A stretch of 64,000 nt of DNA, taken from NCBI RefSeq assembly GCF_014803725.1, contig NZ_JAAVBE010000021.1, forward strand, positions 35,466-99,465. Reading direction: 5' to 3'. Below, in pieces: positions 32,012 through 39,319 of this stretch (position 1 is the first letter of the stretch; each line of letters opens with the position of its first letter). The DNA comes from Desulfovibrio sp. (GTDB taxonomy: Bacteria; Desulfobacterota; Desulfovibrionia; Desulfovibrionales; Desulfovibrionaceae). The position numbers were made by a program, and so were the translations under genes. The notes under the pieces were generated by a model, which did not search any database, was not told the DNA's origin, and saw nothing but the letters and a program-made list of their open reading frames with translations.

Positions 32012-32159
32012 GTCGGCGACATTTCAGCCAAAAATCCACCCGCGCGGGGGCGCCTCAGCCTCCGCGCGGCGCCTTTTTTCGTTCATGTATCGTGTGAGGC
32101 GTCGCTTGCCTCTTGGCAGGCGGCGCTCTCCGTGCCACCTTTGTCTGCTTTTTCCTTGC

Positions 32160-34556
32160 ATGCCCTACGCCCGCGTCGCCCTGCTGAGCCCCCCTTACGC
32201 CACGCTGACCTATAGCCTGCCATCCTTTTTCGCCCCGGATCTCTGGCGTCCGGGGCTGCGTGTGGCCGTGCCCCTCGGCCGGGGGGAGCGCGGCGCCCTG
32301 CGCGCCGGCATCGTGCTCGAAGTGACGGCAAGCGCCGACGTGCCGGAGGGCGTGATCTGCAAGGAGGTCTTCTGGCCGCTGGAAACAGAGCCGTTGCTCG
32401 CGCCCGGCCTCTTTGACCTCCTGCGTGATCTCGCGTTGCGGCAGGGAGTGGAGCCGGGCCATGTGGCCGGCCATGTGCTTCCGCAGGGGCTACGCAGTAC
32501 CGGAGTGCGGCTGCGCCGCCTCGGTGCCCGCGCGGAAACACTGACCCTGCGTGAGCTCAGGCAGGCGGACGCCGTCACGCGTGCCACGCTTGCGCAGGAA
32601 CTGTGTTCGGGCGCCGCCCGTCTCTTGCCCCGAAGCGCGGATGCCGCCAGCGAGGAATTTTGCCACCTGCGTGTGGAACCTCCCTGGCCCGTGCGTCCCG
32701 CAGCCACCCGGCAGGTCGCGGTGCTGGAATTTCTGCATGCGCAGGGGCCGGTGAGCCGGCGACGGCTGCTGCGCGAAGTGAAGGACGCCGCTCCGGCGCT
32801 GGCCGCACTGGTACGGGCCGGCCATGTGGCGCTCGTCCATGATGGCGCGGAAGAGGAGGAACCGGGCGCGGCCCTCCTTGCGCCTGCGCCCGAGCGCGTC
32901 ACCCTCAATGCGGACCAGGCCGCCGCGCTTGCGTGCCTCACCGTCGCGCTGGAGGCGGAAAGCCCGCAAAACCGCCTGCTCTACGGCGTCACCGGCAGCG
33001 GCAAGACGGCCGTATATCTGGAACTCGCCGAACGCGCCCTCGCCCGGGGGCGCAGCGTCCTTTTGCTCGCGCCCGAAGTGGCCCTGGCGCTCAAGCTGCG
33101 GCGGGATGCGGCCCGCGCCCTGCCGGACGCGCCGCTTATTCTCTACCACGGCTACCAGTCGCCGGGGCGGCGCGAAGCCACGTTTCGGGCGCTGGCGGAA
33201 AGCCGGGGCCCCTGCCTCGTGGTGGGCACGCGCTCGGCCCTCTTTTTGCCCATTCCGTCGCTTGGCTGCATCATCCTCGACGAGGAACATGACGCCTCCT
33301 TCAAGCAGGAGGACGGCCTGGCCTACCAGGCGCGGGAGGTGGCGTGGGCGCGCATGCGGCGCGAGCGCGGCCTGCTAGTCCTCGGCTCGGCCACGCCCGA
33401 CCTCAAGACATTTCACGCAGCCAGCGAGGGGCGCCTGCCGATCCTGCGGTTGCCCAGGCGCGTGGGGGGGCGGCCGCTCCCACCTGTGGAGCTCGTGGAC
33501 ATCAGCGCGAACCCCCGCCTCTTCCCCGCGGCCCGGGACGGCGCGAACGCTGAGGGGGAGGCGGCAGCCGCCGGCATCCTCGCGCCCCAGTGCGAGGACG
33601 CCCTGCGCGAGACGCTGGCCCGGGGTGAACAGGCCGTCGTCCTGCTCAACCGGCGCGGCTATGCGCCGCTCATGTATTGCCTCTCCTGCGGGCGGACGCA
33701 ACGCTGCCCGCACTGCGACATCGGCCTCACCTACCACAAGGGGCTGGAGCGCCTCGTCTGTCATTATTGCGGCTATTCCCGGCCCTTCCCCTCGCCCTGC
33801 GACCATTGCGGGGGCATGGAGTTCCTGCCGCTGGGGGAGGGCACCGAGCGCCTTGCGGAGCGGCTTTCCCTCCTTGCGGGGCAGCCCGTCCTCCGGCTCG
33901 ACCGCGACAGCACCCGGCGCCCCGGCCGCATGGAAGAGATACTGGAGGCCTTCGCCCGGCGTGAGTCGCCCATCCTCGTGGGCACACAAATGCTCTCCAA
34001 GGGGCACCATTTCCCGCGGGTGACGCTCGCCATCGTGGCCGACGGCGACCTCGGCCTCAACCTGCCCGATTATCGCGCGGCAGAGCGTACCTTCCAGCTG
34101 CTCGTCCAGTCCGCCGGGCGCGCCGGCCGCGGCGAGCGCCCGGGCCGCGTGCTCATCCAGACGCGCGCCACGGAGCATTATTGCTGGCAGTTTGTACGCA
34201 GCGCTGATTATGAGGGGTTTTACGAGACTGAGCTCGCCCTGCGCAAGAAGCGCGGCTACCCGCCCTTTGTCCGGCTCGGGCTGCTCAGGATCTCCTACGC
34301 AGCCGACGAGGCAGGCGGGGCCCCGGCCCTCTCGGAGCTGGCCACCGCCCTGCGCGGCGAGGCGGCGCGACTCGGCGTCACCATGCTCGGGCCCGCGCCG
34401 GCCCCCCTGGGCCTCTTGCGCGGGCGGCGCCGCTTCCAGTGCCTGCTCAAGGCCCCGGCGTGGCCGCCCTTGCGCGAACTCTATTTTTTTGCCCGCAGCC
34501 GCATGCCCGCCATTTTGCGCCTTGGTCTTGACCTCGATCCCGTTAATATGCTGTGA
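32160..34556 (+). CDS. priA: Primosomal protein N' (PriA helicase)
   Basis: LLYGVTGSGKTAVYLELAERAL...IILDEEHDASFKQEDGLAYQARE...VLLNRRGYAPLMYCLSCGRTQRCPHCDIGLTYHKG. Confidence 0.95.
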   Translation: MPYARVALLSPPYATLTYSLPSFFAPDLWRPGLRVAVPLGRGERGALRAGIVLEVTASADVPEGVICKEVFWPLETEPLLAPGLFDLLRDLALRQGVEPGHVAGHVLPQGLRSTGVRLRRLGARAETLTLRELRQADAVTRATLAQELCSGAARLLPRSADAASEEFCHLRVEPPWPVRPAATRQVAVLEFLHAQGPVSRRRLLREVKDAAPALAALVRAGHVALVHDGAEEEEPGAALLAPAPERVTLNADQAAALACLTVALEAESPQNRLLYGVTGSGKTAVYLELAERALARGRSVLLLAPEVALALKLRRDAARALPDAPLILYHGYQSPGRREATFRALAESRGPCLVVGTRSALFLPIPSLGCIILDEEHDASFKQEDGLAYQAREVAWARMRRERGLLVLGSATPDLKTFHAASEGRLPILRLPRRVGGRPLPPVELVDISANPRLFPAARDGANAEGEAAAAGILAPQCEDALRETLARGEQAVVLLNRRGYAPLMYCLSCGRTQRCPHCDIGLTYHKGLERLVCHYCGYSRPFPSPCDHCGGMEFLPLGEGTERLAERLSLLAGQPVLRLDRDSTRRPGRMEEILEAFARRESPILVGTQMLSKGHHFPRVTLAIVADGDLGLNLPDYRAAERTFQLLVQSAGRAGRGERPGRVLIQTRATEHYCWQFVRSADYEGFYETELALRKKRGYPPFVRLGLLRISYAADEAGGAPALSELATALRGEAARLGVTMLGPAPAPLGLLRGRRRFQCLLKAPAWPPLRELYFFARSRMPAILRLGLDLDPVNML

Positions 34557-34618
34557 TGCCGAGTTCTCGCTCATCTGTGGCGCGGGCCTTCCCCGCGGCA
34601 TCTTTTTTAGGAGGGATC

Positions 34619-35923
34619 ATGAGATTCGTTCGCGGCCTGTGCTGTACGTGCGCGCTCTTGCTGGCTCTTAGCGGTGTGGCGCGGGCCGAGGGCTTTGCTC
34701 TCAATGAGTGGAGCGCCAGGGGCGTTTCCCTGGCGGGCGGCCTCGTGGGGCGGGCGGATGACGTTTCGGCCCTGGCCTACAATGCCGCAGGCATCACCCA
34801 GCTCCCGGGCACGCAGCTCATGGCCGGCCTCGCCTTCATCGCGCCCATGGGCACCATCGACGCCGACCTTCTCGGCGGCCGCAAGCACGATACCACCACC
34901 AAGCCCGCCACCTTCCTGGCCCCGCACGGCTTCGTGAGCCACCAGCTCAACGACGACTTCTGGCTCGGGCTCGGGATCTTCTCGCGTTTCGGCGTGGGCA
35001 ACAGCTACGCGCAGGACTGGGTGGGCCGCTACAATGTCTATGACGTGGGGCTTCAGACCATCTCCTTCGTGCCCACCGTGGCCTGGAAGATCAACGACAT
35101 CTTTTCCGTTTCCGCCGGGGTGGAAGTTCTCTATGCCGGTTTTTACATGGGCAACAAGATCCCGACTATGCAGCTCACGGCCGCCGGCCCGAGCCAGGGC
35201 TCGGACAATGACCTCCAGTTGCAGGGCGACGGCTGGGGCGTTGGCGCCCAGTTCGGGCTCCACATGCGTTTCAATGAGCAATGGTCCGTGGGCCTCGCCT
35301 ACAAAAGCCAAGTGACCCTGAACATCGACGGCGAGGTGGAGTTCGGGCGCCAGGGCGAGCCCAATCTCCTCGCCACCATGGGGCGCGTGCCCGAGGCGCG
35401 CAACTGCGGCGCCAACGCCACCGTTCAGCTCCCCGATTCCCTGGCCCTGGGCGTGGCTTACAGGCCCCTCGACGAACTGAGCTTCGAGGTGGGCGCCGTC
35501 TGGACGCGCTGGTCCACCTACAATGCGCTCAACATCTATATGGACAGCGGTTACGCCTCACTCAACGACAAGGCGGCACGCGACGGCCTGAACCTGAACG
35601 CGAGCGTGGAATACTGGCCCCTCGACTGGTGGGCGCTCCGGGCCGGCGTGTCCTATGAGACGCCGGTGCTCAACGAAAAGCACGCCGACTTCCTCATGCC
35701 CACCTATGGCCGCACTACCCTCGGCCTCGGCACGGGCGTGAAATGGAATGAGCTGACCCTTGATTTCGCCTACGCCCACCTGTGGATCCATTCCATGGAT
35801 TACGGGCAGACCGACGCCTCGGGCCTGCTCGCCGGGCCCGGCTCCCCCTCCCGCATCACCGATGCACACTCGAAGAACGTGGTCGCCAACATCTACATGT
35901 TCTCCGTGGGCTATTCCTTCTGA
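34619..35923 (+). CDS. FadL/OMPP1/TodX family outer membrane protein
   Basis: Signal peptide; EGFALNEWSARGVSLAGGLVGRADDVSALAYNAAGITQLPGTQLMAGLAFIAP. Confidence 0.92.
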   Translation: MRFVRGLCCTCALLLALSGVARAEGFALNEWSARGVSLAGGLVGRADDVSALAYNAAGITQLPGTQLMAGLAFIAPMGTIDADLLGGRKHDTTTKPATFLAPHGFVSHQLNDDFWLGLGIFSRFGVGNSYAQDWVGRYNVYDVGLQTISFVPTVAWKINDIFSVSAGVEVLYAGFYMGNKIPTMQLTAAGPSQGSDNDLQLQGDGWGVGAQFGLHMRFNEQWSVGLAYKSQVTLNIDGEVEFGRQGEPNLLATMGRVPEARNCGANATVQLPDSLALGVAYRPLDELSFEVGAVWTRWSTYNALNIYMDSGYASLNDKAARDGLNLNASVEYWPLDWWALRAGVSYETPVLNEKHADFLMPTYGRTTLGLGTGVKWNELTLDFAYAHLWIHSMDYGQTDASGLLAGPGSPSRITDAHSKNVVANIYMFSVGYSF

Positions 35924-36090
35924 ATATCCCTCCTCAGCCTGTCCCCGGGTGCCCCGCGCTTTCCTGCGGGGTGCCGGGGGCATAAAGTATTTCCCCAAAA
36001 CTGCCGAAACAGCGGGCAGAATATGTGAACGCCCCGGAAGGGGAGGGCCGTTCCCGTGGCTGGTGGGGACAGTTTTTTAGAAACTCTGTT

Positions 36091-36110
36091 GACAATTTCC
36101 AGAAATTGTC
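36091..36110. promoter_or_regulatory. Palindrome GACAATTT-CCAG-AAATTGTC overlapping a consensus TTGACA
   Basis: 8-bp perfect arms; TTGACA at 36089-36094, about 45 nt upstream of the 36155 start codon. Confidence 0.55.
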
Positions 36111-36154
36111 CAACATTCCGCTTCCCGGACAAGGAAGTTTGCGAGGAGGATGTC

Positions 36155-36832
36155 ATGAAACGGATTCTCGTCATTGCGGCGCTGGTTCTCTCCCTGGCCC
36201 TGCCCGGACTTGCTGCCGCCGAAGGCACGGGGATGTACATTGCGCCGAAATTCCTCATGTCCATCCAGGACACCGGGACTGTTTCGCGCTCCAGTGCCCT
36301 TGCCGGGTCGGGCATTGACGATTACAGCCAGTTCACCCTCGGCGGCGCGCTCGCCGTGGGCTACGATTTCTGGACACAGCAGATGATCCCGCTGCGCTTC
36401 GAGGTCGAGTTCGCTATGCGCGGCAACAGCGAAAAAAGCTGGAGCGACAACGGGGTGAACGTGGACAAGATCAAGGGCACCTGGAACAACTCCACCCTGT
36501 TCGCCAACCTTTTCTGGGACTTCCACAACGACACCGCCTTCACGCCCTATATCGGCGCCGGTCTTGGCCTCGCCTTCAACTACACGGGTTTTGACATCAC
36601 CGCCAACAATGGCGACAAATTCTCGGTGGATGACCGCTTCACCAACTTCGCCTGGAACGCGGGCGCCGGTGTTTCCTACAACTTCAACGACAACTTCGCC
36701 GTGGACGCCTCCTATCGTTTCGTGGGCCTTGGCTACAACGAAGTGAGCACCACCTATAACGGCCAGAAGTACGAGATCGGCAGCGACCCGTACAACAACG
36801 AGTTCATGCTCGGCCTGCGTTTCGCCTTCTAG
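36155..36832 (+). CDS. Outer-membrane beta-barrel (OmpX/Opa-like) protein
   Basis: Signal peptide MKRILVIAALVLSLALPGLAAA; barrel ending ...EFMLGLRFAF (terminal aromatic). Confidence 0.85.
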   Translation: MKRILVIAALVLSLALPGLAAAEGTGMYIAPKFLMSIQDTGTVSRSSALAGSGIDDYSQFTLGGALAVGYDFWTQQMIPLRFEVEFAMRGNSEKSWSDNGVNVDKIKGTWNNSTLFANLFWDFHNDTAFTPYIGAGLGLAFNYTGFDITANNGDKFSVDDRFTNFAWNAGAGVSYNFNDNFAVDASYRFVGLGYNEVSTTYNGQKYEIGSDPYNNEFMLGLRFAF

Positions 36833-36911: not shown

Positions 36912-37273
36912 CGTATGGGCCTTTTGCAGCGCGCCCGCCGGGGAGAGGAACGGCGGGCAGCGCAACATGGGCATGAATGCCGTTTCGCGATTTTGAGAAA
37001 GAATCAAAGGAATATTGCGATATGTCGAGATAACAAAAAAGAGGATTGTGGAAAACTTTTTTTTAAATATGTGCATATCCCGCTTGCCAATGGGGAAACC
37101 GTTGCCCAGCAAGCGTTTTTCCGGCACCTTCCAGAGCCTTGGCTTAAAAAAAGAATATTTTATTTCAAAGAGTTATTTGTTCAATTCTTTGGGGATAGCA
37201 AAAGGCCGCCGCCCCGGGCACAGGGGGTGGCGCCCCTTTGCCTGACGGTGCGGCGCGGGCTATATGCTTGTCC

Positions 37274-38710
37274 ATGCAAGGCACATGGGCGGATATTTCT
37301 GCAAATCTCAAGAAAATGCTGGATTCCGGCATTTTCAGGGTCTGGATAGCTCCGTTGCGCGCCGTCGTTGACGGCACGGAACTGCGCCTGACCGTGCCCA
37401 GTGCCTTCATGGCCGAATGGCTTGAGCGCCATCTTTTGAAGACACTCCGCGAGGCGGCGGCGCCCGTGCTCGGCGTTGCCGCGGATGCCGTGCGCGTGCG
37501 CCTGCTGACAGCGCAGGACGGAGGGGAGGCCCCCAAGGCCGCGGCATCGGCCAGCTCCGCCGAGCTCGTTGCCGGCGTTTTGCCGCGGTTCGGGCGATGC
37601 GCCAGGGCAGAAGCGGCCGCGCAGATGCCCCTGCCTGAAGCCCTGCCCCGGCTCGTTGACCCGGCGCAACGCCCCCTTGCCCGCTGGCGGCACAGTTTCG
37701 AGGATTTCATCATCGGCCCGAGCAACAGCATGGCTGTCGCCGCCGCGCGGGATATTTGCCAAAGGGGCGGCCAGGTGCGCACGCTCTTCGTCACCGGGGC
37801 TTCCGGGCTGGGCAAGACGCATCTCACCCAGTCCGCGGGCCACGCCATCAGTGGTGACGGCGCAAGCCCACGCATCGCCTATCTCACGGCCGAGGAATTC
37901 GCCTCGCGTTTTGTGCAGGCCCTCAAGTGCAAGGATGTGGAGGGCTTCAAGAGCCGTCTGCGCGAGCTCGATGTGCTGCTTCTTGAGGATGTGCATTTTC
38001 TCCAGCGCAAGAAGGCCATGCAGGAGCTGGCGCTCGCCGTCATCAAGGGCCTGCAGGACCGCGGCGGCCGCGTCATCCTGACCTCCTCCTTTGCGCCGCG
38101 CGAACTTCGGGACATGGACCCGCAGCTCGTCTCGCATTTCTGTTCCGGCATCCTCACGAGCATCGGCCGCCCGGACAGGGAAATGCGCAGCCGCATCCTC
38201 ACGCACAAGGCCAGGACCTTCCAGGTGCTCCTGCCTGACGAGGTGCGCGACCTTCTGGCCTCGCGGCTGCACGGCGATGTGCGCCAGCTGGAATCCTGCC
38301 TCAACAGCCTCATCTTCAAGGCGCGCCTGCTCAATTGCGGCCTCAATGTGGACCTCGCCATGGAAGTGGTGGGCCAATATGCGGGCGAGGCACAGGGCCT
38401 TGACATGGAGGCCATCATCCGCCTTGTCTGCGAAAGCTATGGCCTGAGCGAGGCGCAGTTGCGCTCGCGCTCGCGCCGGCAGGAGTGCGTGCAGGGGCGC
38501 AACACCGTGTTCTATCTCGCGCGCAAACATACCGAGCTCTCGCTGGAAGACATCGGCAGCGCCTTCAACCGCCGCCATTCCACGGTGCTTCGCAGCATCA
38601 CCGCCGTTGAGCGCGAGCTCGCCAAGGAGTCCCGCCTCGGGCGCCAGATCGCCCGCGCCGTGAGCCTCATCGAGCGCAGCGCCGGCTGCGGCGTGCCCGA
38701 CGGGATGTAG
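37274..38710 (+). CDS. DnaA-like AAA+ protein (paralog-type chromosomal replication initiator)
   Basis: DnaA domain I; FEDFIIGPSNSMAVAAARDI; Walker A TGASGLGKTHLTQSAGHAI; Walker B LDVLLLEDVHFL; HTH signature NRRHSTVLRSITAVER. Substitutions at conserved box VII (see findings). Confidence 0.9.
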   Translation: MQGTWADISANLKKMLDSGIFRVWIAPLRAVVDGTELRLTVPSAFMAEWLERHLLKTLREAAAPVLGVAADAVRVRLLTAQDGGEAPKAAASASSAELVAGVLPRFGRCARAEAAAQMPLPEALPRLVDPAQRPLARWRHSFEDFIIGPSNSMAVAAARDICQRGGQVRTLFVTGASGLGKTHLTQSAGHAISGDGASPRIAYLTAEEFASRFVQALKCKDVEGFKSRLRELDVLLLEDVHFLQRKKAMQELALAVIKGLQDRGGRVILTSSFAPRELRDMDPQLVSHFCSGILTSIGRPDREMRSRILTHKARTFQVLLPDEVRDLLASRLHGDVRQLESCLNSLIFKARLLNCGLNVDLAMEVVGQYAGEAQGLDMEAIIRLVCESYGLSEAQLRSRSRRQECVQGRNTVFYLARKHTELSLEDIGSAFNRRHSTVLRSITAVERELAKESRLGRQIARAVSLIERSAGCGVPDGM

Positions 38711-38859: not shown

Positions 38860-39319
38860 TTTTGTTACTTGCCGCCCGTAACGGGCTTCCATGGTCCGGG
38901 ATACTTAACTGGTCTCCGAGCTTATCCTGAGCTACTTGACCCTTAATGTACTCCTGAATTTTTTTGTATTTTTTCCTACCCTATCCACATAGTAGCCGCT
39001 GCACCAAAATTCCAGATTGCGGTATTTGGATTTCAGGTCGCAAATTATTCGACAATCATCAGGCTGCTCTTGTCCTTGAGATACACAATAAAAACTGGAA
39101 ACACTTATCTTCTGTGGTATCTCCAGCAACATGTGGATATGGTCAGGGCAACACTCGGCTTCGAGAAGATTTACCGCCTTCCATTCACAGAGTTTTCGTA
39201 AAATCTCTCCTATTGCCCGTTTTTTTCCCATAGAATACCTATCGGCGATATTTAGGGGCGAATACGATGTGATATTTACACTTCCATTTCGAGTGCGCTA
39301 AACTCTTTGTGTCGCCCAT
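38860..39319 (-). pseudogene. IS200/IS605-family TnpA (Y1 HUH transposase) relic
   Basis: Reconstructed across frames: MGDTKSLAHSKWKCKYHIVFAPKYRR*VFYGK/KRAIGEILRKLCEWKAVNLLEAECCPDHIHMLLEIPQKISVSSF/IVYLKDKSSLMI/...SKYRNLEFWCSGYYVDRVGKN/KIQEYIKGQ; one nonsense codon and about four frameshifts. Confidence 0.88.

Follow-up and report, generated by a model that had tools for sequence, protein, structure and literature searches.

The order Desulfovibrionales carries two lineages of the replication initiator DnaA: one (A1) sits at the replication origin, and the other (A2) lies away from it, has various residues at the arginine-finger position and in some genomes is the only DnaA detected. The explanation that we favor for A2, which we hold to be about as likely as not, is that A2 is an initiator-type DnaA of ancient lineage which is independent of the R281 and R285 contacts known from E. 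coli, probably binds ATP and DNA, is coupled to A1, and serves alone where A1 has been lost. The A2 gene studied here lies in the window, by which we mean the whole 64,000-nucleotide stretch of Desulfovibrio sp. DNA that was analyzed.

The A2 protein compared with known DnaA proteins

A2 (37274..38710, + strand; 478 aa, ATG start) has orthologs throughout the order and possesses the full canonical architecture of DnaA_N, Bac_DnaA and Bac_DnaA_C domains (Pfam). The AAA+ domain (Bac_DnaA) scores about 141.6–144 bits, versus 45.8 bits for A1 of the same genome. This domain appears normal in an AlphaFold model built from 16 sequences (mean pLDDT 82), which Foldseek superimposes on domain III of B. 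subtilis DnaA (8bv3) with an rmsd of 1.2 over 227 columns. The ATP site has the features given in a preliminary description of this DNA: a Walker A motif, GASGLGKT (37796..37819, + strand), a Walker B motif of the LLLED type, VLLLEDVHFL (37973..38002, + strand), and the sensor II arginine, R337 (codon 38282..38284, + strand). The Walker A lysine K181, the E-D pair of Walker B (D-D in canonical DnaA) and the sensor II arginine are each invariant in 81/81 A2 orthologs, suggesting that A2 probably binds ATP.

In box VII, the A2 segment MDPQLVSHF aligns on VEDRLKSRF, both in phmmer alignments to the B. subtilis (8btg) and T. maritima (2z4r) proteins and in a MAFFT alignment with E. coli DnaA. Glutamine Q284 (codon cag, 38123..38125, + strand) is thereby placed at the R281 position and histidine H288 (codon cat, 38135..38137, + strand) at that of the arginine finger, R285. 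Both replacements had been read from the window alone, and realignment left the finger position at H288. The histidine is not a sequencing error, because H and Y stand at this position in the two closest orthologs (95% and 87% identical), with dN/dS values of about 0.09 and about 0.15, respectively; among near A2 pairs dN/dS is 0.09–0.18, which indicates that A2 is under purifying selection. The recognition loop of domain IV, FNRRHSTV (38564..38587, + strand), is one residue shorter than FGG[RK]DHSTV; A2 reads FNRRHST and does not match the signature GG[RK]DH[ST], and the D433 position is occupied by R or K in 76/81 A2 orthologs. Upstream of A2, the window encodes PriA, a replication restart helicase, and FadL-type and beta-barrel outer-membrane proteins (32085-36832), in an order (PriA-FadL-OMP-A2) common to this genome and G113. 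Just downstream lies a truncated IS200-type Y1 transposase gene (Pfam Y1_Tnp; 38932-39231, − strand), in agreement with the earlier report that A2 is flanked by an outer-membrane protein gene and an IS relic.

Like the canonical DnaA proteins of E. coli, B. subtilis, T. maritima and A. aeolicus, A2 has domains I, III and IV, a Walker A motif and the sensor II arginine. It differs from them in lacking R281 and R285, in having E-D for D-D in Walker B and a shortened loop with R or K at D433, in its location away from dnaN, and in falling below the TIGR00362 equivalog cut-off (319.8 versus 343.9 bits). Hda (HdaA) shares the DnaA-like AAA+ fold (Foldseek 3bos) but has no domains I and IV, and A2 scores 77.5 against its cut-off of 194.8. 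Chlamydiae possess paired DnaA proteins. The likeness to this order consists in two DnaA genes per genome, as in Waddlia, whereas A2 reaches 168 with PRK12422, which we take to be the chlamydial-type DnaA model and whose cut-off is 657, and no close relation was seen.

A1, the replication origin and the ancestry of A2

The other DnaA of the window genome, A1, is located directly before the sole dnaN (G000:C18:56232-57617; L002 985-2373, − strand) and has S in place of the sensor II arginine. Its presence next to dnaN rejects the possibility that this genome has a single DnaA and bears out the proposal that the gene in the window represents a second DnaA, one located apart from dnaN. At least two DnaA-like matches were present in 94 of the 99 Desulfovibrionaceae genomes searched, and the gene order A1-dnaN-gyrB-gyrA recurs in relatives. 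Cumulative GC skew, sampled as 20 stretches of 20 kb per genome, reaches its minimum at A1-dnaN in each of three complete relatives (G113, G154 and G122), with A2 0.8–1.6 Mb distant; A2 is rejected as the origin gene by GC skew in these three genomes. Contig C1 starts with A2 in G115, G110, G130, G122, G154, G126, G068, G095, G029 and G044, although skew puts the origin of G154 and G122 at A1-dnaN. Several complete assemblies begin at A2, apparently as the stronger DnaA match, so that base 1 in them lies far from the origin defined by skew, a point of practical consequence.

A1 and A2 have the same domain order, but A1, at the skew minimum, keeps R285 (64/65) and, nearly always, the FGG[RK]DHST loop, while its AAA+ domain has diverged much further. 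Among the 253 pairs that 23 genomes form, 249 show higher conservation of A2 than of A1, with a median identity of 48% versus 34%, and by overall similarity A1 is the strongly diverged, faster-changing copy of the two. In the A1 of G154 (L062 7893-9482) box VII is replaced by unrelated sequence and domain IV is still canonical.

In a DnaA tree of 88 rows, obtained by a quick search with E. coli as the outgroup, the A2 proteins of Desulfovibrionales cluster together (SH-aLRT 100) as part of a second lineage of 50 rows (SH-aLRT 99), to which many further families of the phylum Desulfobacterota also contribute DnaA proteins. The grouping of A2 is firm in this tree; the precise position of A1 is uncertain because the search was quick and the A1 branches are long. 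Common to the second lineage are an LLLE[DE] Walker B motif (with few exceptions), a recognition loop shorter by one residue and the lack of a neighboring dnaN, all of which are seen in A2; dnaN-adjacent DnaA copies bear FGG[RK]DH, again with few exceptions. Judged by tree and motifs together, A2 is an order-wide clade within an older, phylum-wide second DnaA lineage. Its sister proteins from other Desulfobacterota resemble it in having LLLE[DE]VHF, an FN[R]-x-H loop, no dnaN neighbor and usually no R281, but differ in that R285 is kept in all members seen. In several of these families a second-lineage protein is the sole DnaA: it is the only full DnaA found, away from dnaN and with R285 kept, in G335, G283, G247, G267, G325, G343, G301, G326, G350, G328, G303, G333 and G348. 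The genome of D. vulgaris Hildenborough is presumably annotated with both dnaA-1 and dnaA-2. No published account of a second DnaA, whether for Desulfovibrio or for Desulfobacterota, was found, and the main text of the D. vulgaris transposon-library paper makes no mention of the A1 and A2 genes.

Box VII arginines and genomes with one DnaA or none

The two arginine replacements noted in the window differ in their conservation across the order. R281 is gone in 73 of 81 A2 orthologs and kept in 8, while the R285 position drifts among R (34), H (26), Y (10), Q (9), L (1) and C (1). Arginine occupies both positions in 73/73 DnaA proteins of other bacteria, among the matches listed in a named-genome scan from which Desulfovibrionales and one Desulfobulbus were left out, which puts the replacements in A2 well beyond chance. 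Named A2 genes were few among the matches listed in a genome-wide scan. When the box VII columns are omitted, the A2 tree requires six switches between R and non-R at the R285 position. The groups without R285 are family f5, which has Q; f3 with f6, which have Y and L; G005, which has C; and the genus with G215, which have H and Y, although two R285-bearing rows are nested within the genus. An association between the R285 state of A2 and the presence of A1 was looked for and none was found. To judge from these alignments, R285 is labile in A2 and is no fixed trait of a dedicated regulator.

A2 is the sole full-length DnaA, as recognized by the domain IV profile, in seven f5 genomes (G004, G010, G015, G020, G025, G030 and G035), six f2 genomes, G091 and G215, the absence of A1 being read from assemblies that are mostly drafts. 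The R285 position of this sole DnaA is Q in f5, H in G215, and R in f2 and G091. An A1 profile run on all of these genomes but G030 matched the A2 gene alone, plus weak AAA+ matches, and wherever an intact dnaN was found and read (again setting G030 aside) it had gyrB after it and no A1 before it. In G010, a single-contig f5 genome from which A1 is gone, the skew minimum still lies near dnaN, in a noisier profile. Upstream of dnaN, no canonical box cluster was seen in A2-only genomes and no repeated 9-11-mer in most of them. A2 is dispensable too, because A1-only genomes exist (G200, G206 and G223). As far as these assemblies can be trusted, the finding that each copy can be lost is most easily understood if A1 and A2 are both initiator-type proteins. 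Frames of ~335-365 aa with a Bac_DnaA_C domain occur beyond two full DnaA genes at G014:C2:144058, G029:C1:3517389, G024:C14:209462 and G061:C3:12956.

The preliminary description had proposed that A2 is a DnaA-fold regulator, and in its fuller form (a transcription factor, titrator or brake of A1 that binds ATP and DNA without forming canonical ATP-DnaA filaments, with A1 as sole initiator) we regard this reading as unlikely. It agrees with the location of A1 beside dnaN at the skew minimum and the retention by A1 of R285 and the canonical GG[RK]DH loop, with the loss of R281 almost everywhere in A2 and the altered recognition loop, and with the A1-only genomes, which show that A2 can be lost. 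What stands of the proposal is a second DnaA with a conserved loss of R281. A purely modulatory role does not account for an A2 without R285 as the only DnaA detected in the seven f5 genomes and G215, and this occurrence argues against a mere regulator; A2 is also the only DnaA detected in G091 and part of f2. In addition, A1 changes faster than A2, and a dedicated regulator with a permanently lost finger does not predict the history of R285, because the state changes six times with no link to A1.

A second alternative, which we consider improbable, is that dependence on DnaA has been relaxed in these bacteria, with a drift toward DnaA-independent initiation as in cyanobacteria (the loss of cyanobacterial dnaA is discussed in PMC7198777), and that the finger site is simply free of selection by now. 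Six residues alternate at R285, box VII has been destroyed in the A1 of G154, and in two congeneric genomes, G098 (99% complete) and G170 (98% complete), four different searches found no DnaA of either type, where PF00308, PF08299 and profile searches may miss very diverged copies. In both genomes dnaN and gyrB are in place (L318, G098:C2:106000-125000; L319, G170:C72:22000-41000), making these members of the genus Desulfovibrio candidate DnaA-less bacteria. Relaxed dependence is opposed by the strong purifying selection on A2 with its invariant ATP site, and by the regular GC skew, whose minimum lies at dnaN.

The element upstream of A2 and the role proposed for A2

A DnaA-box-like nonamer, TTTTCCACA (TGTGGAAAA on the + strand), is located between genes 227 bp upstream of A2 (37047..37055, − strand), at a position conserved across the order. 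It is followed ~22 bp downstream by a second, degenerate site, TGTGCATAT (TGTGGATAT in the 95% identical ortholog; 37070..37078, − strand), and near −83 by a third box-like site, TGGGGATAG (TTATCCCCA in several congeners; 37190..37198, − strand). An A-rich stretch adjoins the first box (37010..37046, + strand), with the relatives' consensus TGAGAAAA..GAGAAAA, and local A+T beside the box near −230 is 73%. Upstream of A2, 64 TTATCCACA-like sites (at most one mismatch) were found in 71 loci versus 7.8 expected, and downstream 14 versus 9.9 expected. The box sites cluster near −230 in reverse orientation (46/49 sites there share one orientation) and are mostly TTTTCCACA. An exact box variant is present near −230 in 37 of the 53 A2 loci outside A2-only genomes versus 0.4 expected, a count over four spellings that were picked after inspection of the data, which leaves the enrichment of TTATCCACA by itself as the cleaner figure; local shuffles give an exact match in 0.8%. 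Across the window genome, canonical TTATCCACA occurs at 6 sites versus 15 for a reversed-pattern control, none of them near A1 or A2.

The box near −230 is found in 0/14 A2-only genomes, and on the tree its presence can be compared with that of A1 in six independent pairs, of which about five are concordant and none is against (p about 0.06). We suggest that A1 probably binds this box, which would tie the supply of A2 to the activity of A1. Such coupling is weakened by the small number of pairs, by the 16 of 52 genomes with both A1 and A2 that are missing an exact box, and by a genus of f20, whose lone second-lineage DnaA keeps TTATCAACA at −281, so that A1 is unproven as the reader of the box. 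That the element is instead a second or conditional origin fired by A1 and/or A2, with A2 traveling along, is very improbable: its box by an A-rich stretch, in many cases accompanied by a second box ~22 bp on, is the same across families despite different neighbors and recalls the box-plus-AT-rich module of oriC, but the element is not at the GC-skew minimum, no skew reversal occurs at A2 in G113, G154 and G122, a dnaA promoter with DnaA boxes accounts for it equally well, and it is absent from A2-only genomes.

In the explanation that we favor, A2 belongs to the ancient second lineage and would have been kept as an initiator-type protein without the canonical R281/R285 contacts, binding ATP and contacting DNA through its altered domain IV. 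Assembly may proceed without a finger or, in Desulfovibrio, beside A1, which still supplies one; there A2 probably acts jointly with A1, the diverged DnaA at the origin that keeps R285 and the canonical box-reading loop, and upon loss of A1 it would be left as the only DnaA. Several observations count against this explanation. In E. coli, R285 contacts the ATP of the neighboring subunit and is reported to be essential for ATP-dependent activation at oriC, while R281 stabilizes oligomers and helicase loading (PMC5742627), and arginine-finger mutants of DnaA from three Gram-negative species (S. elongatus, H. pylori and D. radiodurans) fail to unwind although ADP suffices (PMC8287927). Furthermore, A1 and not A2 is at the origin, A1-only genomes exist, and A2-only genomes have no canonical box cluster before dnaN.

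The arginine finger is regarded as a general switch for the assembly of ATP-DnaA on origins, and in this order it has been lost repeatedly, in the course of evolution, from a DnaA that is under purifying selection and that in some genomes is not accompanied by any other DnaA. It is possible, though we hold it only tentatively, that a DnaA without both box VII arginines is the sole initiator throughout one family of sulfate reducers and again in a separate species; if true, origin firing by DnaA would not be universally dependent on the finger. By supplying natural knock-outs of A1 or A2, the order makes the roles of a co-existing DnaA pair directly testable.
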